This document shows positions 2,545 through 46,445 of a stretch of 64,000 nucleotides of DNA, piece by piece; within the stretch, counting starts at the first letter, position 1; each line of letters starts with the position of its first letter. The stretch lies in NCBI GenBank assembly GCA_902806435.1, contig CADCWO010000032.1, forward strand, positions 1 to 64,000, in the 5' to 3' direction. Source of the DNA: an uncultured Synechococcales cyanobacterium. GTDB taxonomy: Bacteria > Cyanobacteriota > Cyanobacteriia > Thermosynechococcales > Thermosynechococcaceae. Position numbers and translations under genes: made by a program. The notes under the pieces are model-generated. The model was not told where the DNA came from. It ran no database searches and saw only the letters and a list, made by a program, of their open reading frames with translations.

Positions 2545-3015
2545 TTAAGACTCATTACTAACGTACTCAGGTGTTTCACTATGAGCTAGCTCTAGGGCGG
2601 CTTTCAAGGTATGCCACGTTAAGGTGGCACATTTAATCCGCACAGGAAACTGGGCGACGCCCTGCATCACATTTAATTTTCGTAACTCTTTAGGAAACTC
2701 TGCTTCCCCTTTCATCATCGCCTGAAAGCGTTGAATCATCTCCAAAGCCTCTTTGACACTTTTGCCGCGCATCGCATCGGCCATTAGGTCAGCAGAAGAC
2801 ATCGCGATCGCGCAGCCTTCTCCTTCAAATTTGACATCCTGGATATGATTGCCCGCTTCATCAAGCTGTAAAGTCAAATCAATTGTGTCACCACAGGAGG
2901 GATTATGACCCCGCTGGTGGCGGTGGACAGGGCTGGTTTTACCACGATTCCGTGGCTTTTTGTAGTGCTCTAAAATGACTTGTTGATAAAGATTCCGTAG
3001 GTTATCCAGAGACAT
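2545..3015 (-). CDS. sufU: SufU/IscU-type iron-sulfur cluster assembly scaffold
   Basis: This 156-residue protein has the three conserved scaffold cysteines. They lie in NPSCGDTIDL (about residue 41), GEGCAIAMSSADLM (about 66) and VRIKCATLTWHTL (about 128), with the ligand Asp next to the first. The roughly 20-residue insertion before the third Cys (QAMMKGEAEFPKELRKLNVM) is typical of SufU rather than IscU. In SUF systems SufU binds zinc and accepts sulfur from the SufS desulfurase. A direct scaffold role is also proposed, and the sequence does not separate the two. It is cytoplasmic and heads a likely operon with ycf51. Confidence 0.9.
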   Translation of the reverse strand: MSLDNLRNLYQQVILEHYKKPRNRGKTSPVHRHQRGHNPSCGDTIDLTLQLDEAGNHIQDVKFEGEGCAIAMSSADLMADAMRGKSVKEALEMIQRFQAMMKGEAEFPKELRKLNVMQGVAQFPVRIKCATLTWHTLKAALELAHSETPEYVSNES

Positions 3016-32918: not shown

Positions 32919-33167
32919 CTACTTTCTCACGATGTGGGCTGCGCTATTTGGGCCTCGGTTGACTAAATACGGATAGTTTGAGCTGCTTCTTACTGATGTC
33001 TGAGGGGCTTTATCCACAATGAAAGCTGCTCCGTTTGGACCTCGGTTGACCAGTTGTGGCTTAGTTTGTGCCATAGCGGAAGCTGATACAAACTCAAAGC
33101 TTAGAGTAATAACGCCAACTAATCCTGCAGTTGCTAAAGTTTTTGAACCTTTCATCATTTGCCTCAT
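32919..33167 (-). CDS. Small secreted protein with a duplicated LVNRGPN motif
   Basis: The 82-residue protein has a signal peptide (hydrophobic stretch LATAGLVGVITLSFEFVSASAMA, cut after AMA near 33). The mature part is about 49 residues long and consists mainly of two copies of a 17-residue unit: PQLVNRGPNGAAFIVDK and PYLVNRGPNSAAHIVRK. The copies are separated by a short Ser-rich linker. I do not recognise the family. The product is probably periplasmic. It follows transposase and kinase remnants and precedes the degenerate response regulator. Confidence 0.65.
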   Translation of the reverse strand: MRQMMKGSKTLATAGLVGVITLSFEFVSASAMAQTKPQLVNRGPNGAAFIVDKAPQTSVRSSSNYPYLVNRGPNSAAHIVRK

Positions 33168-33318
33168 ATCAAAGGGTTGTCAAAGCGACTGTAATAGAAG
33201 ATACAGGTTACTTAAGAAGCAAAAATGAATTTTCCCTGAGCTAAGGTATAGTCTTTGCTGAGAAAATGATCAGCAGCTTGAAGGGGTATCCAACCTGCCC
33301 TAATCCTTTGGTCATTTT

Positions 33319-34053
33319 TTATTGCCGCAGTACATACCCAACACCACGAACGGTTTGAATCAGCCTTTTTTCGTTGTTGGCCTCTAACTTCAGCCGCAAG
33401 TAGCGAATGTAGACCTCAATGATATTGGAATCACCCGTGAAGTCATAGCCCCAAACCAGTTCTAGGATGCGATCGTGGGTGATCACTTGCCGGGGATGAG
33501 CCATTAAATAGTCAAGTAAATCGAACTCTTTTACCGTTAATGCAATTAACCGGCTACCGTAATAGACTTCTCGCGTTTTCCGGTTTAACGCTAAATCTGC
33601 GAATTGCAAGATATGCGAGCTTTTTGCCTGGGTGCGTCGCAAGTGAGCCCGAATTCTGGCCAACAGTTCCTCAAGACTGAAGGGCTTAGTAATACAGTCG
33701 TCTGCACCTGCATCTAAGCCCACTACGCGATCGCTGACCTCACCCTTGGCAGCGATTAAAATAATTCGAATCTTACTCCCAGTTGACCGCAGGCGGCGAC
33801 AAATTTCATATCCAGATAAATCAGGAAGCAACCCGTTGATAATCATCAAATCCGGATAAGATTCCCGTGCCAGCGTTAGACCAGTAACACCATCGTGGGC
33901 AGTACTGACTTGGTAGCCTACATAGCTAAGCTCAAGCTCGATGACTTGAGCTAATGGAACTTCACCTTCAACCAGTAAGATGCGACTTGAATAAGGATGT
34001 TGCTTTTGGTAGCTTTGGGCGCTGACGCTCTTATTGTCGAGTTTTGTTGGCAT
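33319..34053 (-). CDS. OmpR/PhoB-family regulator with a degenerate receiver domain
   Basis: The 244-residue protein has an N-terminal CheY-like receiver and a C-terminal winged helix. The phosphorylation residues are altered. The acceptor Asp is Asn73 (LMIINGLLPDLSG), the acidic pair is Gly30-Glu31 (LLVEGEVP), and the conserved Thr/Ser is Ala101 (ILIAAKGE). Lys123 (TKPFSLEE) remains. The DNA-binding domain (IEVYIRYLRLKLEANNEKRL and so on) is intact and nearly identical to that of the regulator at 40368. It therefore probably binds the same sites without phosphorylation control. No kinase gene is adjacent. Confidence 0.9.
   Translation of the reverse strand: MPTKLDNKSVSAQSYQKQHPYSSRILLVEGEVPLAQVIELELSYVGYQVSTAHDGVTGLTLARESYPDLMIINGLLPDLSGYEICRRLRSTGSKIRIILIAAKGEVSDRVVGLDAGADDCITKPFSLEELLARIRAHLRRTQAKSSHILQFADLALNRKTREVYYGSRLIALTVKEFDLLDYLMAHPRQVITHDRILELVWGYDFTGDSNIIEVYIRYLRLKLEANNEKRLIQTVRGVGYVLRQ
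33327..33498. repeat. 172-base near-identical repeat of the regulator DNA-binding region (copy 1)
   Basis: This segment matches 40376-40547 with only four mismatches over 172 bases, in the same orientation. The sequences diverge strongly outside it. It covers the coding part of the winged-helix DNA-binding domain. Confidence 0.9.
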
Positions 34054-39340: not shown

Positions 39341-40310
39341 TAACGTGAGTTCGGGATAAGAAAAGGAGGGGACAAGTAGGGTGAGAGTTGTCAAACCTAT
39401 TCAGCAGGCCTCTCCAATGTCTAGTCTAGAAGAACTGTTTTGTCATATTGATGATTTTTACCAAGCCTTTGAACCCTGCTGGCAGCAGCACCTGTTAGGC
39501 CAAGGGTACCGAAGCGCCGGCGCTCCAGAGCGATGAGTCTGAGTGAAATCCTGACGATTCTAGTGGCCTTTCATCAGCAGAGCTATCGCGACTTCAAAAG
39601 CTACTATGTCAAACAGGTCCCTAAGCACTGGTCGGGTGAGTTTCCGGGCTTAGTGAGCTATCAGCGCTTTGTTGAATGGATACCCTCAACGTTGCTACCG
39701 CTGTGTGCCTATCTCAAATCTTGCTTTGGCAAATGTAGCGGAATTAGCTTCATTGACTCCACTAGCCTCAAGGTTTGCCACAACCGTCGCATCTGTGATC
39801 ATCGGGTTTTCGCCGGACTCGCCGCCCGCGGTAAAACTTCGGTGGATTGGTTCAGTGGTTTGAAGCTACATCTGGTGGTTAATGATTATGGAGAACTGCT
39901 CAATGTCACTTTGACACCAGGCAACATTGATGATCGCAAACCTGTTGCGGATTTACTCAAAACGCTCTTTGGAAAAGTTTTTGCTGAGCGAGGTTATGTC
40001 TGTCGAGCGCTAGCTGAGCAGCTGTTCAATGCCTATGGCATTGAGTTTTTTGCCAAACGTAGGCGCAATATGAAGAATACTCTGATGCGCTTGAGTGATA
40101 AGCTGCTGGCCCGGAAGCGGGCCATTGTGGAAACCATCATCGATCAGCTCAAGAACATTTCGCAAATTGAACATTCTCGTCACCGCAGTCCGCTCAATTG
40201 CTTTGTCCACATCTTGTGCGGGCTGATTGCTTATTCTCATCAGCCGAAAAAGCCGTCCATCAATTTTGACTTCGCTTTACCTCAAGCGGCTTAACCCGAA
40301 CTGAGGTTAA
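39341..40310 (+). mobile_element. IS982-family insertion sequence, about 970 bp
   Basis: Terminal inverted repeats are visible. The left end reads TAACGTGAGTTCGGGATAAG (39341). The right end, complemented, reads TAACCTCAGTTCGGGTTAAG, with 17 of 20 matching. The transposase fills most of the element. I could not identify a clear target-site duplication, so the outer edges may be off by a few bases. It lies between the frameshifted kinase and the regulator at 40368. Confidence 0.75.
39417..40294 (+). pseudogene. IS982 transposase, frameshifted
   Basis: The first frame begins at ATG 39417 ([20 protein letters not shown]) and ends near 39534. The rest is in another frame, open from the ATG at 39533 ([16 protein letters not shown]). 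In that second frame the codons just before it read KRRRSRA, as in normal IS982 enzymes. The break therefore lies near 39504-39512. The catalytic DDE region is present: [38 protein letters not shown], and KRRRNMKN to the end. The two frames may overlap as ATGA, so reinitiation cannot be excluded. A single complete product is unlikely. Confidence 0.8.
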
Positions 40311-40367: not shown

Positions 40368-41042
40368 TCACTCTCGCAGTACATACCCAACGCCACGAAC
40401 GGTTTGAATCAGCCTTTTTTCGTTGTTGGCCTCTAACTTCAGCCGCAAGTAGCGAATGTAGACCTCAATGATATTGGAATCGCCCATGAAGTCATAGCCC
40501 CAAACCAGTTCTAGGATGCGATCGCGGGTGATCACTTGCCGGGGATGGAGGAGTAGGTACTCCAACAAATCGAATTCCTTTGCCGTCAATTCAATTGAGC
40601 GCTCTCCCCGCTGGACTTCGCGCGTCTGGCGATTCAAGCTTAAATCTTCAAATTGCAAAGTACCAGAGTCTGCTTCCTGCGCCCGCCGCAAATGAGCTCT
40701 TACTCTAGCTAACAACTCCTCAATGCTAAAGGGCTTGACTACGTAATCATCGGCTCCTGCATCTAAACCCGCCACACGATCAGTGATTTCATCTTTTGCG
40801 GTTAATAAAATAACTGGCACTTGATCTCCAGTTGAGCGCAGGCGACGGCAGACTTCCAAGCCGGATAAGCCTGGAAGCAGCCAGTCTAAGATAATTAGGT
40901 CGGGGTGAGAATCTCGCGCGGTGGTCAGTCCTGCCAAACCATCGTGCACTACACTGACTTGGTATCCCTCATAGCCCAGTTCTAGCTCAATCATCCGGGC
41001 CAGTTTGGCTTCATCTTCAACCAGCAAGATATGAGCGCCCAT
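40368..41042 (-). CDS. OmpR/PhoB-family response regulator
   Basis: The 224-residue protein starts at the ATG at 41042 (MGAHILLVEDEAKLARM), 7 bases after the upstream kinase stop; an earlier ATG at 41090 would overlap the kinase. Receiver residues are intact: Asp10/Glu11, the acceptor Asp53 (LIILDWLLPGLSG), Thr81 (LLTAKDE) and Lys103 (VVKPFSIEE). The C-terminal winged helix is of the OmpR type (ELVWGYDFMGDSNIIEVYIRYLRLKLE). It is the partner of the kinase at 41050. I infer that it controls the divergent redox cluster, based on direct repeats there. Confidence 0.93.
   Translation of the reverse strand: MGAHILLVEDEAKLARMIELELGYEGYQVSVVHDGLAGLTTARDSHPDLIILDWLLPGLSGLEVCRRLRSTGDQVPVILLTAKDEITDRVAGLDAGADDYVVKPFSIEELLARVRAHLRRAQEADSGTLQFEDLSLNRQTREVQRGERSIELTAKEFDLLEYLLLHPRQVITRDRILELVWGYDFMGDSNIIEVYIRYLRLKLEANNEKRLIQTVRGVGYVLRE
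40376..40547. repeat. 172-base near-identical repeat of the regulator DNA-binding region (copy 2)
   Basis: This is the partner of 33327-33498, with four mismatches over 172 bases. It covers the winged-helix coding region of the intact regulator. The receiver coding regions of the two paralogues are far less similar. Confidence 0.9.
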
Positions 41043-41049
41043 GGTTTGA

Positions 41050-42525
41050 TCAGTAAGCGGGTAAGGTGATTGTAAATATACTACCCTCACCCCCTTTAGA
41101 GCGAACTGTAATGCTGCCAGACATACCTTCGACGAGGGTCTTCACAATCGCCAGCCCCAAACCATAGCTACCGGATAGCCCCAAACTGCTGTCAGTAGTG
41201 GAACGAGCCCTAGCTTCATCTACCCGGTAGAAGCGCTCAAAAACACGGGCTTGGTGTTGCAGCGGAATGCCACGACCGCGATCGCAAACTTGGATTGTGG
41301 CATCCTTCCCGATCTGGTCTAGCTTCACTGTCACCGGTTGGCCTGGATCTGAGTACTTTAGAGCATTGTCAATCAGGTTGAGCAGCACTTGTCTGAGGCG
41401 ATTACTGTCGACTCTTCCCATAATTGGAACCGATGGTGCTTCAAGGGCAATGGTCCGGCTGCTAAACTGCTGTGCCATCCCAATGATTTCAAGTACTAGA
41501 TCATTGAGCACCAGCGATTCTAAGCGAAACTGCATGGTCCCACTCTCAGCCCGCGCTAAGTCGAGCAAGTCTTGCAACAAACGAATGGTGCGGCTTGCTT
41601 CAGCAGCAGCAATTTCCAACGCTTCCCGCTGAGGTTCGGTCAGATTGGTCGCTCGCCGTAGCGTACTTTGCAGATAGCCATGCACAATTGTTAAGGGCGT
41701 TCGCAACTCATGGGAGACATTGCCCACAAATTGTCGCTGTTGTTCCCAGGCTTGTTGCTGCTGTTCCCAAGCTTCCGACAGACGAGACAACATCATGTTG
41801 AAGGTTTGGGCTAATTCCCTGACTTCGCTTGGTGCCTGAGTAAGTTGAAGGCGAGTTTGCCCTAGATCTTTAGCTGAAACTGCCTTGACCGTTTGACTCA
41901 TCGTCCACAGGGGCTGGAGCGATCGCTGCACATAGAGGGCAATTGCCAATGTAATTACGCTAATCACTAAGATACTGACAATACTCAAGCTGCGGACCAG
42001 ATCAATCAGCATGGTCTCGTCTTTAGTGATGTCCTGAGCGATATAAAGTTGACCCACCATCCTTCCCCGCACGTTCAACGGTTTACTACATAGCACTAGA
42101 TAATGGTCACTAATCTCCCTTACCTCAGGTTTACTCGGTAAGTCTGATTGGGTAATCAATTGAGCCGTAATACCGTGAGTATCGGCCTTTAGGGTTTCAG
42201 ATTTAGCTAGAACCGTACCATCACGCTTGACCCAAATCAACAAGTTCGGAGTGCTTCGATTGTCGATTGCCTTTTGTAGCCCTACCTCAAGGGGTAACAT
42301 TTCGCTATAAAGGGCAACATCGCGCGGCAAACGAGCAGCAACGTACACGATAGATTCTTTGTGAGAGTTAACGAGAATCTGGTACATTTGCCAGCTTGTC
42401 CAAGCGGCAAGACTACCTAATCCCAAGACTGAGACTGCTGTAATTCCTACTGTGAGACGAAATTGTAGCGAAAGTGGGTCAATTCGTTTTCTGAGTTGAT
42501 TAATTGCTCCTAGTAAATCAGCCAC
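41050..42525 (-). CDS. Membrane-bound sensor histidine kinase
   Basis: The 491-residue protein has two membrane spans at about 23-48 and 185-207, which enclose a periplasmic sensor region of about 135 residues. A HAMP domain follows (LQPLWTMSQTVKAVSAKDLG), then HisKA with the phosphoacceptor His (NVSHELRTPLTIVHGYLQ). The HATPase has the N box (LRQVLLNLIDNALKYSD), G1 (DRGRGIPL) and G2 (GSYGLGLAIVK) motifs. Topology resembles metal- and envelope-stress-sensing kinases. Gene order is kinase then regulator, 7 bases apart, which indicates an operon. It diverges from the Met-rich protein gene, with a TTTAATCT direct repeat in between. Confidence 0.94.
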   Translation of the reverse strand: MADLLGAINQLRKRIDPLSLQFRLTVGITAVSVLGLGSLAAWTSWQMYQILVNSHKESIVYVAARLPRDVALYSEMLPLEVGLQKAIDNRSTPNLLIWVKRDGTVLAKSETLKADTHGITAQLITQSDLPSKPEVREISDHYLVLCSKPLNVRGRMVGQLYIAQDITKDETMLIDLVRSLSIVSILVISVITLAIALYVQRSLQPLWTMSQTVKAVSAKDLGQTRLQLTQAPSEVRELAQTFNMMLSRLSEAWEQQQQAWEQQRQFVGNVSHELRTPLTIVHGYLQSTLRRATNLTEPQREALEIAAAEASRTIRLLQDLLDLARAESGTMQFRLESLVLNDLVLEIIGMAQQFSSRTIALEAPSVPIMGRVDSNRLRQVLLNLIDNALKYSDPGQPVTVKLDQIGKDATIQVCDRGRGIPLQHQARVFERFYRVDEARARSTTDSSLGLSGSYGLGLAIVKTLVEGMSGSITVRSKGGEGSIFTITLPAY

Positions 42526-42662
42526 AAACTTTATGCAAAAAATACATTTATTTATTAAAAAAGTAATCTCAGTTTAACGATGCATTTTGAAAAACTATCG
42601 ACAAGCAAGTAAGAGAAGTGATAGAAGTTAATTCCCAAACCCAACCTGCTTCTAGCAAAATA

Positions 42663-42681
42663 TTTAATCTAAATTTAATCT
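42663..42681 (+). promoter_or_regulatory. Direct repeat TTTAATCT-N3-TTTAATCT (site 1)
   Basis: TTTAATCT at 42663-42670 recurs at 42674-42681, an 11-base period. Tandem 8-mers spaced by three bases are the typical operator layout of OmpR/PhoB-type regulators. The 8-mer fits the cyanobacterial Pho-box pattern (PyTTAAPyPyT). It lies between the divergent kinase/regulator operon and the Met-rich protein gene, so it may serve either. Confidence 0.55.
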
Positions 42682-43016
42682 TTTCTTCAGCAGATTCTCA
42701 GAATAGTAGGGCAGACTATCTACCAATCAGCTCAATCTGGGCAGGTCCCTGAAGGCAATTTTTTGATGCTATTTCACGTCATTGTTGCAGCAACCTTCTA
42801 CAAGGTTTAGCCGTGTAACTTTCAAGATTTAGCTTGCTAATCACAATCTCATCGGATGAACTACCAAGATCGTAAAGCTCTTTTTGAAGTTTTTAATTAG
42901 ATGGACCTGAGAAAACTCACAGTCTAGGCTCAGGGAGTTCTCAGATTAGCTAATTATGATTTGACAAAACGCTCAAGCTTTTCAACATAGCTCAGCAAAA
43001 CCAAGGAGATACTTCC

Positions 43017-43397
43017 ATGTACTCACTCGTCAAAACCTCAGCCATCGCCGCTATCCTCAGCATAACAATGGCAACCACTGCCGAAGCTAAACAGCCAGAC
43101 AGCAATACAACCGCCAGTAGCACCCCTGCCCAATCTCAAATCCTGATTGCCCAAACTCAAGCGCCCTTTAGGGACTCAAGGCCCTACCGGAACTTTATTT
43201 ATGAAAGGCGCATGATGGATGAAATGATCATGGAGCGGATGAGAATGGTAGGTATGGCTCAAGAAATGCTTGAAACGACCAAAGATCCTGGGATGAGGAA
43301 AATGGCTCAGGATATCATTACCTCCGGCAATGCTGAAATCACTAGAATGCTCCAAACGCGCAGACAAATGTTCTTTGAGAACCCGGATAAAGGATAG
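43017..43397 (+). CDS. Secreted methionine-rich protein, DUF305-like
   Basis: The 126-residue protein has a signal peptide cut near residue 24 (MATTAEA). After a polar linker, residues 55-120 form a helical region with 12 methionines between 66 and 118, eight of them within residues 66-84 (RRMMDEMIMERMRMVGMAQEM). The tail MRKMAQDIITSGNAEITRML has the pattern of DUF305-type proteins. Clustered Met residues can bind Cu+ or absorb oxidants. A good ribosome site (AAGGAG) precedes the ATG. The gene diverges from the kinase/regulator operon and leads a redox cluster, so its product may be a stress scavenger or metal chaperone. Confidence 0.8.
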   Translation: MYSLVKTSAIAAILSITMATTAEAKQPDSNTTASSTPAQSQILIAQTQAPFRDSRPYRNFIYERRMMDEMIMERMRMVGMAQEMLETTKDPGMRKMAQDIITSGNAEITRMLQTRRQMFFENPDKG

Positions 43398-43549
43398 TCT
43401 GGCAGAGTTTGGCCGTTATTGAGCATGGCTGAACTCTTGCTGTTGAGCTCTAACGCTGGCCTGTTGTTTCCCTGGTGAAGCGATCGCAAAACCATGGATG
43501 ATGTAGGTGTACCCTTGATCGATGCTAAATCCACCTTAAGGGGGAGGAT

Positions 43550-43568
43550 TTTAATCTAGCTTTAATCT
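43550..43568 (+). promoter_or_regulatory. Direct repeat TTTAATCT-N3-TTTAATCT (site 2)
   Basis: The same 8-mer recurs at 43550-43557 and 43561-43568, with the identical 11-base period as the site at 42663. It lies about 175 bases before the cytochrome b gene. Two matching copies in one locus make a shared regulator likely. Confidence 0.6.
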
Positions 43569-43741: not shown

Positions 43742-44341
43742 ATGACATCCACTTCTGCTAAGCGATCGCGGCCTGCTCCTAAGCAGGCTATTCAAGCCAA
43801 GCTATTTCACTCACTCAATATCATCGGCTTGATTTTGATGACTACCAGTGGGCTGCAAATTTATAATGCCAATCCCGTATTTGGCGGACGTGGAGGCTGG
43901 CCTTTTCCTGACCTATTTTTGCTGGGGGGTGGCCTTGCCAACGGTAGACACTGGCATTTCGCCGCAATGTGGCTGTTTTCCCTAAATTTACTAGGTTACG
44001 GCGTTTACATTTTGCTTACCCGCCGCTGGAAGCAGCGCTTTGCTAGTTCCGCCGACCTGAAAGCACTCAAAGCTAGTCAGAACGAAAAGCGTAAAACCTA
44101 TGCCTGGCATCGATTAGTATATACAGCTATTATTCCCATTCTGCTCCTGGCGATACTGAGCGGGATGGGAATGTATAAGCCAGCCCAGTTCCCGTGGATT
44201 GTGGATTTATTTGGTAGTTGGCAGGCACTGCGAGTTGTCCATTTTATTACCGTACCAACGGTTGTCGTCTTTTCCCTAGCTCACTCCCTGTTAGGGCTAA
44301 AGGTGGGGACTATGCGTCTAGTCCGATCCATTTTCTGGTAG
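43742..44341 (+). CDS. Membrane cytochrome b (b561/formate-dehydrogenase gamma type)
   Basis: The 199-residue protein has four membrane spans (about 24-42, 72-94, 121-142 and 159-184). Candidate heme-ligand histidines are in KLFHSLNIIGLI, GRHWHFAAMW, YAWHRLVYTAI and RVVHFITVPTVVVFSLAHSLLG. It resembles the cytochrome b subunits that pass electrons from quinol or another carrier to a periplasmic oxidoreductase. It starts 8 bases before a molybdopterin-oxidoreductase gene, the arrangement expected for a membrane anchor/electron donor of that enzyme. A distinct MsrQ family signature is not seen, so the role is inferred from context. Confidence 0.82.
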   Translation: MTSTSAKRSRPAPKQAIQAKLFHSLNIIGLILMTTSGLQIYNANPVFGGRGGWPFPDLFLLGGGLANGRHWHFAAMWLFSLNLLGYGVYILLTRRWKQRFASSADLKALKASQNEKRKTYAWHRLVYTAIIPILLLAILSGMGMYKPAQFPWIVDLFGSWQALRVVHFITVPTVVVFSLAHSLLGLKVGTMRLVRSIFW

Positions 44342-44349
44342 AGGTCTCT

Positions 44350-45069
44350 ATGGATTTGCTTCAACCGCGTCATAGATTATTGCGCCGTCGTTTCCTGCAG
44401 CTTTCTGGTTTGAGCGGCATTAGCCTCGTCCTGGGTGGGTGTGGGTCTAACCTGTTTGCAGAGACGGTTAACGACGCCTTTGAACCCCTGAATCAACGTG
44501 TTGAGACCTTACTGTTCAAGCCACAAACTCCGGTACCAGAATTTCCGCCAAGCGCGATCGAGCCAGAGGCCCTATTAATTAATTCTTTTGGAGAAACCCC
44601 CAGACTCAACCCAGCTACATTTCGTTTGGTGATTGATGGGGAAGTGAATAACCCGCTCAGCCTCAGCATGGATGAGATCCGACGGATGCCTCTAACTTCA
44701 ATGATTATTCGTCATGTCTGCGTTGAGGGCTGGGCGGCGATCGTCCAATGGGGTGGTGTCCGACTACGGGACCTAGTGCAATTGGTTCAACCCAAAAATA
44801 GCGCTCGCTACGTTTACTTTCAGTCAGCGGATGGCTATTCCGAAAGCTGGGATCTAGATTCCGTTCTTCATCCCCAAACGTTGATGGCTTACCAAAAAAA
44901 TGATCGTCCCTTGCCCGTAGATAATGGGGCACCACTTCGGCTGGCCTCTCCGGTCAAGCTAGGCTACAAGCAAAGCAAGTGGGTGACTCGAATCACGCTG
45001 GTCAATGAGTTGATGCCTTCTAAGGGCTACTGGGAAGACCGGGGTTACGAGTGGTATGCAGGGTTGTAA
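44350..45069 (+). CDS. Exported molybdopterin-dependent oxidoreductase, MsrP/YedY-like
   Basis: The 239-residue protein starts at the ATG at 44350, 8 bases after the cytochrome b stop. An in-frame extension to 44218 overlaps that gene and is unlikely. The N-terminus has a twin-Arg export motif (RRRFLQLSG) and a lipobox-like VLGGC with Cys31. The domain is the sulfite-oxidase-type Mo-cofactor fold. The Mo-ligand Cys is Cys124 in RHVCVEGWAAIVQWGGVRLRDL. MsrP reduces oxidised methionines in periplasmic proteins. Similar single-domain members also include other sulfoxide reductases, so the substrate is an inference. Confidence 0.85.
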   Translation: MDLLQPRHRLLRRRFLQLSGLSGISLVLGGCGSNLFAETVNDAFEPLNQRVETLLFKPQTPVPEFPPSAIEPEALLINSFGETPRLNPATFRLVIDGEVNNPLSLSMDEIRRMPLTSMIIRHVCVEGWAAIVQWGGVRLRDLVQLVQPKNSARYVYFQSADGYSESWDLDSVLHPQTLMAYQKNDRPLPVDNGAPLRLASPVKLGYKQSKWVTRITLVNELMPSKGYWEDRGYEWYAGL

Positions 45070-45160
45070 GGTTGTGGTTTTTGTTGCTAAAGGGGTTTAG
45101 CTACGTCATGCCCCTAAGTGACCTTTATCTTCCGGTTTATTGAGCCAAGAGAGAATAGAA

Positions 45161-45748
45161 ATGAGCAAGCTTCTCCGGCGACGCCAGCTATTACTGTACT
45201 TTAGTTTAGGAGTTGTGGGAGCCGGTGGAGCTGTCGCCTTGCAAAGTAACTTTAGGAAACCTAGCCCTGTTGCCTCTGGTGCCCCTGCTACCTTTGCTGC
45301 TCCCCCTTTGCCGAAGCGTCAGCCCTTAAAAGAGTTTCGGGGAATTAGCCAGTGGTTGAATTCTGATCCCCTTACGGTTGCCGATCTTAAAGGGAACGTT
45401 GTGCTGCTCCAATTCTGGACGTTTGGATGTAGTGTCTGCCAACTCACCCTACCACACGTCACGCGCTGGAACCAGCAGTATGCTGCTCAGGGATTGAAGG
45501 TGATTGGGGTCCATACTCCAGAATTCCCTTACGAGCGGGACGTGAATAGTGTTAAAAGCGCGCTAAAGCGGGCCCAGATCACCTATCCTGTGCCGATTGA
45601 TAACGAATTGCAGACTTGGAGCGCTTATCAAGAACGCTTCTGGCCACATCTGTACTTGGCTGATCGCGATGGCATTATCCGGTTTGACTATGCTGGAGCC
45701 GGCGCTTACCAAGAAACTGAGCAAGCAATCCGCACGCTCTTAGGATAG
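45161..45748 (+). CDS. TlpA-like membrane-anchored thioredoxin
   Basis: The 195-residue protein starts at the ATG at 45161 (MSKLLRRRQLLLYF); an in-frame TTG at 45140 is less likely. An N-terminal signal anchor is followed by a Pro/Ala-rich linker and a thioredoxin fold of the TlpA/DipZ type. The active site is WTFGCSVC (Cys90, Cys93), followed by LTLPHVTRWNQQYAAQGLKVIGVHTPEF. It probably reduces disulfides in the periplasm or lumen. It precedes ccdA-like by 4 bases, so the two form a functional unit in which CcdA delivers electrons to this protein. Confidence 0.88.
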   Translation: MSKLLRRRQLLLYFSLGVVGAGGAVALQSNFRKPSPVASGAPATFAAPPLPKRQPLKEFRGISQWLNSDPLTVADLKGNVVLLQFWTFGCSVCQLTLPHVTRWNQQYAAQGLKVIGVHTPEFPYERDVNSVKSALKRAQITYPVPIDNELQTWSAYQERFWPHLYLADRDGIIRFDYAGAGAYQETEQAIRTLLG

Positions 45749-45752
45749 TTTT

Positions 45753-46445
45753 ATGCCTCCTTCTCCGCCATCGATTGGGTTGGCATTGCTTGCTGGAGTT
45801 TTAGCGGTCTTATCTCCCTGTGTTTTGCCGGTTATGCCCTTGATTATTGGGCGATCGCTTCAGTCCCATCGCTATGGCCCGCTTGCTCTTGTAGTCGGTT
45901 TGATTGCCGGTTTTGCTGCTATTGGCAGCTTATTAGGCGTGACCGCGAGTTGGTTTGCCGGGTTAGCCACTGCCCTAAGAACGTCCGCCATTACTCTGCT
46001 GCTGGTTGCGGGGGTTTTAGCAATTTTCCCCAAACTAAGCTACCGGCTGTTCAGCTACTTGCGCTTGGATCGCTGGCTACAGGCACCATCACGAGTCGGA
46101 TTAGTCGGAGAGTTCTGGTTAGGTACCCAACTTGGTTTGCTATGGACGCCGTGCGCCGGGCCCGTACTCGGTAGTATTTTGCTCCTGGCTGCGGTGGAAC
46201 ACGATGCTAGAGCTGCCTTTGTGCTTCTTAGTGCCTATGGTCTAGGTTCTGGTCTTCCACTGCTCGCGATCGCCTATAGTGGTCGTTATCTTAGTCAACA
46301 CTTACTTGGTTTACGCTCCCACAGTGCCAAGCTCCAAAGGGTAGGGGGAGTGATTGTGGTGATGAGCGCGATCGCAATTTTCCTAGGTTGGGATATCCAA
46401 ATTCAGCTTTGGCTGGCACCTATCTTTCCAACTCTACTATTTTGA
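45753..46445 (+). CDS. CcdA/DsbD-type thiol electron transporter
   Basis: The 230-residue protein has six predicted membrane spans. The two conserved cysteines are Cys23 (AVLSPCVLPVMPLIIG) and Cys134 (GLLWTPCAGPVLGSILLLAAVEHD). They shuttle electrons from cytoplasmic thioredoxin across the membrane. In cyanobacteria a CcdA homologue also serves cytochrome c maturation at the thylakoid; whether this copy does so is unknown. The upstream TlpA-like gene is 4 bases away and is the likely acceptor. Confidence 0.9.
   Translation: MPPSPPSIGLALLAGVLAVLSPCVLPVMPLIIGRSLQSHRYGPLALVVGLIAGFAAIGSLLGVTASWFAGLATALRTSAITLLLVAGVLAIFPKLSYRLFSYLRLDRWLQAPSRVGLVGEFWLGTQLGLLWTPCAGPVLGSILLLAAVEHDARAAFVLLSAYGLGSGLPLLAIAYSGRYLSQHLLGLRSHSAKLQRVGGVIVVMSAIAIFLGWDIQIQLWLAPIFPTLLF

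Follow-up and report, generated by a model that had tools for sequence, protein, structure and literature searches.

Paired 11-bp direct repeats as predicted operators of a two-component system next to an MsrP-like gene cluster in an uncultured cyanobacterium

Which protein, if any, reads two identical tandem repeats that lie 887 bp apart at a single locus? The window analyzed here, a 64,000-nucleotide stretch of DNA from an uncultured Synechococcales cyanobacterium, contains two pairs of the form TTTAATCT-N3-TTTAATCT. Both 19-mers were found where the first-pass annotation had placed them, and their sole difference is the spacer (AAA or AGC). The pairs and the surrounding genes are:

42663..42681, plus strand, first pair TTTAATCT-AAA-TTTAATCT, located 5' of both the kinase start codon (about 138 bp) and the DUF305 gene (336 bp)
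43550..43568, plus strand, second pair TTTAATCT-AGC-TTTAATCT, with the cytochrome b start codon 173 bp downstream
40368..41042, minus strand, response regulator with a receiver and an OmpR-type winged helix, closest to the named model NblR (below its cut-off); the proposed binder
41050..42525, minus strand, membrane histidine kinase (HAMP, HisKA, HATPase), first gene of the kinase-regulator operon
43017..43397, plus strand, secreted Met-rich DUF305 protein, weakly CopM-like (PF03713, E=3e-6); a proposed target
43742..44341, plus strand, cytochrome b561-like membrane protein (PF01292), first gene of the proposed target operon
44350..45069, plus strand, molybdopterin oxidoreductase, MsrP/YedY-like (PF00174, E=2e-37)
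45140..45748, plus strand, TlpA/ResA-like thioredoxin-fold protein (profile matches)
45753..46445, plus strand, DsbD/CcdA-like membrane protein (profile match)

The regulator encoded at 40368 possesses its phosphorylation aspartate (DLIILDWLLPG), and members of the kinase family were found in 169 of 390 cyanobacterial genomes; no signal could be read from the residues conserved in the sensor region of the kinase. The DUF305 protein matched the NCBIfam CopM model with E=2e-7 and 30.7 bits (cut-off 90), and the product of 44350..45069 matched the MsrP model with E=1e-29 and 103 bits (equivalog cut-off 207). Directly downstream of the regulator lies a transposase-like ORF (39533-40294, plus strand), and a similar ORF is found on another contig of the same genome (L284).

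The repeats are rare. Across the whole 4.79 Mb genome, the exact TTTAATCT-N3-TTTAATCT pattern occurs twice, with no match at one mismatch and nine matches at two mismatches. The additional genomic targets anticipated by the first-pass annotation did not appear, the whole-genome scan yielding none beyond the two. Allowing up to three mismatches within the window returned the same two 19-mer matches only (0.54 expected), and at least two matches were obtained at this setting in 12 of 100 shuffles of the window. TTTAATCT is also the only 8-mer with two exact 8-N3-8 tandems in the window, and none of 60 dinucleotide shuffles contained any 8-mer in two exact 8-N3-8 tandems. These analyses confirm that the repeats are real and more than chance. 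Among 389 other cyanobacterial genomes, the exact 19-base pattern was found 15 times versus 29 for its reversed control. Since this count does not exceed the control, the exact 19-mer was rejected as a class-wide operator. A scan for sigma-70 promoters between 42500 and 43760 returned nothing above chance.

A motif was then learned independently of this genome. We collected up to 500 bp 5' of 89 orthologous kinase operons (87 non-redundant), excluding our own genome, and applied expectation maximization. One dominant motif, TTTCTCAGCAAAAACTCATCTT, was reached de novo from most of the best seeds. It is an 11-bp tandem repeat, TTTCTCAG-N3-AACTCATCT, with the half-site nYTMAKCW, and its self-similarity is high at no lag other than 11. 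After further removal of the nearest relative, the motif scored at least 11 bits at 57 of 88 kinase promoters. Most of these sites lie 50-480 bp ahead of the kinase, and 45 of the 57 are oriented towards it. Second half-sites with a TTAAT core were present at four kinase promoters (L164, L172, L177, and L194), which places TTTAATCT inside the observed range. The earlier reading should be corrected in one respect: judging from these promoters, the conserved operator is predicted to be CTCAG-N6-CTMAT rather than TTTAATCT, which represents a variant of it at this locus. The degenerate form YTMAKCW-N4-YTMAKCW was found 20 times in the genome, and its reversed control 4 times; three of the 20 matches fall within 0.9 kb at this locus. 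The proposed OmpR/PhoB-type tandem architecture agrees with these data, both in the ~11-bp direct repeats 5' of genes and in the lag-11 periodicity of the independently learned motif.

When the window was scanned with this motif, the first pair proved to be part of a longer array, and further candidate sites were identified in the 491-bp gap between the kinase and DUF305 genes:

42663..42703, plus strand, four-repeat in-phase array TTTAATCT-AAA-TTTAATCT-TTT-CTTCAGCA-GAT-TCTCAGAA, 11-bp period
42833..42856, plus strand, predicted operator CTTGCTAATCACAATCTCATCGGA (12.8 bits, window rank 7)
42892..42915, minus strand, predicted operator TTTTCTCAGGTCCATCTAATTAAA (12.1 bits, window rank 9)
42928..42946, plus strand, weaker predicted tandem GCTCAGGG-AGT-TCTCAGAT (rank 6 in the two-half-site window scan)

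The first-pass annotation was right about the pair at 42663 but missed its in-phase continuation CTTCAGCA-GAT-TCTCAGAA, as well as the further sites of the same family inside 42526-43016. Taken alone, the 42663 pair ranks 6 of ~128,000 window positions with the kinase-promoter motif. Scored as four half-sites, position 42663 is the best in the window among ~128,000 positions, with 25.9 bits (the runner-up, 33263, scored 18.9), which indicates that the pair forms the leading two of four in-phase repeats. Neither 300 column-permuted models nor 2,000 shuffles of the gap produced a score this high, and four-repeat maxima for other periods from 8 to 14 ranged from 8.4 to 21.7 bits. The gap holds three more of the fifteen best sites of the window. 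It contains four sites of at least 9 bits against a shuffle mean of 0.31, and four were reached in none of 1,000 shuffles. Self-control of the kinase-regulator operon, as initially suggested, is supported in silico: a motif from orthologous kinase promoters elsewhere gives the 42663 array the top rank in the window. Unlike most sites at orthologous kinase promoters, the array is oriented towards the DUF305 gene, so that its chief role may be to control DUF305. The upstream comparison revealed no kinase-side TTTAATCT pair in the nearest relative.

The pair at 43550 consists of two repeats only and is weak by itself (rank ~10 with two half-sites; 1.7 bits and rank 119 with the full motif in the window). 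The nearest relative (L057) presents TTTAATCT-CAC-GTTAATCT at the matching place, where the upstream alignment is conserved as a block; ~40 bp beyond this pair lies the best site of that 20-kb locus, a consensus match of 26.6 bits. TTTAATCT pairs 5' of the cluster were also sought in more distant relatives and were found in the nearest relative only. Similar sites precede the Met-rich-TlpA-DsbD-cytochrome-MsrP cluster at several Nostoc loci. The motif is not generally enriched 5' of the MsrP-like cluster across 80 non-redundant relatives (mean rank P 0.50); enrichment is restricted to a subset, mainly clusters with the Met-rich gene (6/22). The footprint kept in the nearest relative, together with the similar sites that several Nostoc have 5' of their version of the cluster, supports the suggested local regulon, to which the cytochrome b operon would belong. 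In another genome, a 24.5-bit predicted operator (L073:6560-6583) is located ~45 bp 5' of a gene for a spondin-domain secreted protein beside the cluster.

It could be argued from the weakness of the 43550 site on the full motif, and from the lack of class-wide enrichment of the 19-base pattern, that the repeats have no regulatory role and are a chance product of AT-rich intergenic DNA. We consider this very improbable: the repeats are unique in the genome, shuffles fail to reproduce them, and they combine conservation in the nearest relative with a top rank obtained from an independently learned motif.

A PhoB-type regulator was raised early as an alternative, with the pairs serving as Pho boxes for SphR/PhoB and the cluster being induced by phosphate starvation. 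SphR binds 8-bp repeats separated by 3-bp linkers, with the consensus CTTAACCT and at least three repeats in a row (PMC1906773). TTTAATCT-N3-TTTAATCT matches YTTAAYYT-N3-YTTAAYYT at 16 of 16 positions, and because of this perfect fit to the cyanobacterial Pho box SphR stays a rival. Two of the three exact genomic occurrences of YTTAAYYT-N3-YTTAAYYT are at this locus, the genome's own pstS promoter carries CTTAATCT-CTA-GTTAAATA-AAT-TTTAATCG in the same phase, and an SphR-like regulator with an adjacent kinase is encoded on contig C208. However, each site presents two Pho-type repeats, short of three or more tandem 8-mers, and the in-phase continuation at 42663 (CTTCAGCA and TCTCAGAA) fits the CTCAG-type kinase-promoter motif rather than a Pho box. 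The neighbors (kinase/regulator, DUF305, cytochrome b, MsrP-like, TlpA, and DsbD genes) include no phosphate gene, and the SphR recognition helix KTVDVHIRWLREKIE is unlike NIIEVYIRYLRLKLE. The phosphate reading is further weakened by the distribution of Pho-like tandems, which were detected at none of 89 orthologous kinase promoters and 5' of the cluster in only 1 of 74 relatives, the nearest one. The Pho-box match stands, but phosphate control through SphR is, in our assessment, unlikely. The pstS promoter itself (L267, ~2610-2660, minus strand) displays five in-phase Pho-like repeats, namely CTTAATCT, GTTAAATA, TTTAATCG, ATTTATTA, and CTTAACCA.

Preferring the regulator at 40368 over SphR leaves other OmpR-type proteins to be weighed; 17 regulators of this type are present in the genome. 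One of these others is encoded in the window close to the second-best array:

33319..34053, minus strand, paralogous regulator, 73% identical to 40368, with a degenerate receiver
33216..33263, minus strand, in-phase array TCTCAGCA-AAG-ACTATACC-TTA-GCTCAGGG-AAA-ATTCATTT, second-best four-repeat score of the window
32919..33167, minus strand, 82-aa protein, predicted to be secreted, in which an LVNRGPN motif recurs, a possible further target with the predicted array ~50 bp upstream

In the receiver of the 33319 protein, the phosphorylation Asp is replaced by Asn and a Thr by Ala, and the acidic pair is altered. The 40368 and 33319 proteins are identical over their last ~36 residues, recognition helix included, and NblR (L282) is nearly identical to both in this helix. 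The array at 33216..33263 is the best match of model R1 in the 4.79 Mb genome and is located just downstream of 33319, 5' of the gene for the small secreted protein, whose product has no family match. The other sites of the genome scan with model R1 were within genes or of unclear relevance. The near-identical helices and the position of this best match make it conceivable that another OmpR-family regulator, most likely 33319 or NblR, binds the repeats, perhaps in competition with 40368. The motif, however, was derived from promoters of orthologues of the partner kinase of 40368, and the nearest relative (74% complete) has the sites with no close 33319 orthologue: its best match is the orthologue of 40368 and the next is at 49%. 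We judge a different binder to be rather improbable, slightly more so than phosphate control. The 33319 protein may nevertheless compete with 40368 for the same operators, possibly independently of phosphorylation.

The regulator at 40368 and its kinase also recur beside equivalent clusters, with kinship judged here by blast and profile scores, not by trees. An MsrP-like gene was found in about one third of the sampled cyanobacterial genomes, usually with cytochrome b and often with TlpA and DsbD. Orthologues of the regulator and kinase adjoin the same cluster in three loci (L057, L105, and L140), the kinase does so in two others (L061 and L125), and a kinase of the same family directly follows the MsrP-like gene in two further genomes (G293 and G148). 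Kinase and MsrP-like genes co-occur across genomes with an odds ratio of 2.4 (P=1e-4, uncorrected for phylogeny). Nostocales have a Met-rich lipoprotein gene ahead of TlpA; the lipoprotein of L105 matches TIGR02953, the MXKDX-repeat family, with 89 bits (cut-off 41), and this position is filled in the window by the Met-rich DUF305 protein. Viral contigs yielded no relative of the MsrP-like protein. MXKDX-type Met-rich lipoproteins were seen before the TlpA-DsbD-cytochrome-MsrP cluster at L105:7379-7858, L063:7537-7878, and L061:7350-7583, and a DUF4079 membrane protein (L061:6547-7281) is encoded in several genomes next to either the kinase or the cluster.

Our results make it probable that the repeats are operator half-sites of the 40368-41042 regulator, or of a protein that shares its DNA-binding domain, and that they serve autoregulation and a local regulon. 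Together, the independent motif, the 42663 array, and the conservation at 43550 mean that autoregulation and the local regulon are well supported in silico; the identity of the binder, activation rather than repression, and the signal are inferred. Regulator dimers would bind head-to-tail on repeats of 11-bp period with the half-site nYTMAKCW. The 42663-42703 array and the neighboring sites of the gap would let the system regulate both itself and the DUF305 gene, and the 43550 pair would act on the operon that runs from cytochrome b through the MsrP-like and TlpA genes to DsbD. Oxidative (hypochlorite-like) or copper stress in the periplasm is the probable trigger of the regulon as a whole, the signal being suggested by analogy with HprSR/CusSR-MsrPQ and MrpX loci. 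More tentatively, this might be an undescribed, widely conserved cyanobacterial two-component system, with an NblR-like regulator and the operator CTCAG-N6-CTMAT, that controls a periplasmic defense against methionine oxidation (an MXKDX/DUF305 Met-rich protein and an MsrP-like reductase), and in which, in this genome, a duplicated regulator, its receiver degenerate but its DNA-binding surface identical, competes for the same operators and acts as a brake or override that needs no phosphorylation; this broader picture is possible, and we regard it as somewhat doubtful. If the main reading is right, an operator and a regulon would be assigned to a pair whose kinase family is present in those 169 of 390 genomes. 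The pair would also gain a signal hypothesis and be tied to the repair of oxidized methionines outside the membrane, a process known in proteobacteria under hypochlorite and copper stress.

Several known systems share features with this locus. NblR is the nearest named model for the 40368 regulator and has a nearly identical recognition helix, whereas 40368 scores below the NblR cut-off, possesses a kinase partner and a normal receiver, and coexists with a separate NblR-like gene on C256. The Pho box of SphR has the same 8-N3-8 geometry, and TTTAATCT fits its degenerate consensus; it differs from the sites described here in that these have two repeats, no phosphate genes, and flanking in-phase repeats of the CTCAG type. 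In Synechocystis CopRS-CopM, the CopR operator is TTCATN4-5TTCAT (PMC4182526). Both systems combine an OmpR-type regulator and a kinase next to a secreted DUF305/CopM-like protein, tandem YTCAT half-sites, and a self-controlled operon, the last predicted in our case. In contrast, the period of our locus is 11 bp (5-mers N6 apart in the motif and at both sites), not 9-10, the neighbors are MsrP-like redox genes and not a CopBAC pump, and the CopM match is below cut-off. CopRS was rejected as a direct orthologue based on operator spacing.

The closest parallels in gene content come from methionine sulfoxide reductase systems. HprSR and CusSR of E. coli control hiuH-msrPQ, with a link to copper and hypochlorite (PMC9302797). 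There, as is proposed here, a two-component system controls a periplasmic molybdopterin methionine-sulfoxide reductase with a membrane partner, the candidate reductase of our locus being MsrP-like with a match below the equivalog cut-off. Their box CATTACAAAATTGTAATG is palindromic, unlike the direct repeats of this locus, where the membrane partner is a b561-type cytochrome. MrpX and BcrX, of the MXKDX-repeat family, scavenge hypochlorite beside MsrPQ in Azospira (yedYZ-mrpX) and Brucella (bcrXQP) (PMC8315932). The Nostocales versions of the cluster likewise present a Met-rich MXKDX-type protein by the MsrP-like and cytochrome genes, whereas the window has a DUF305 protein at the Met-rich position, and a two-component system adjoins the cluster in place of the ECF sigma/anti-sigma control of the Brucella locus. 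In its predicted gene content, the target cluster thus resembles the MrpX/MsrPQ loci of hypochlorite defense.
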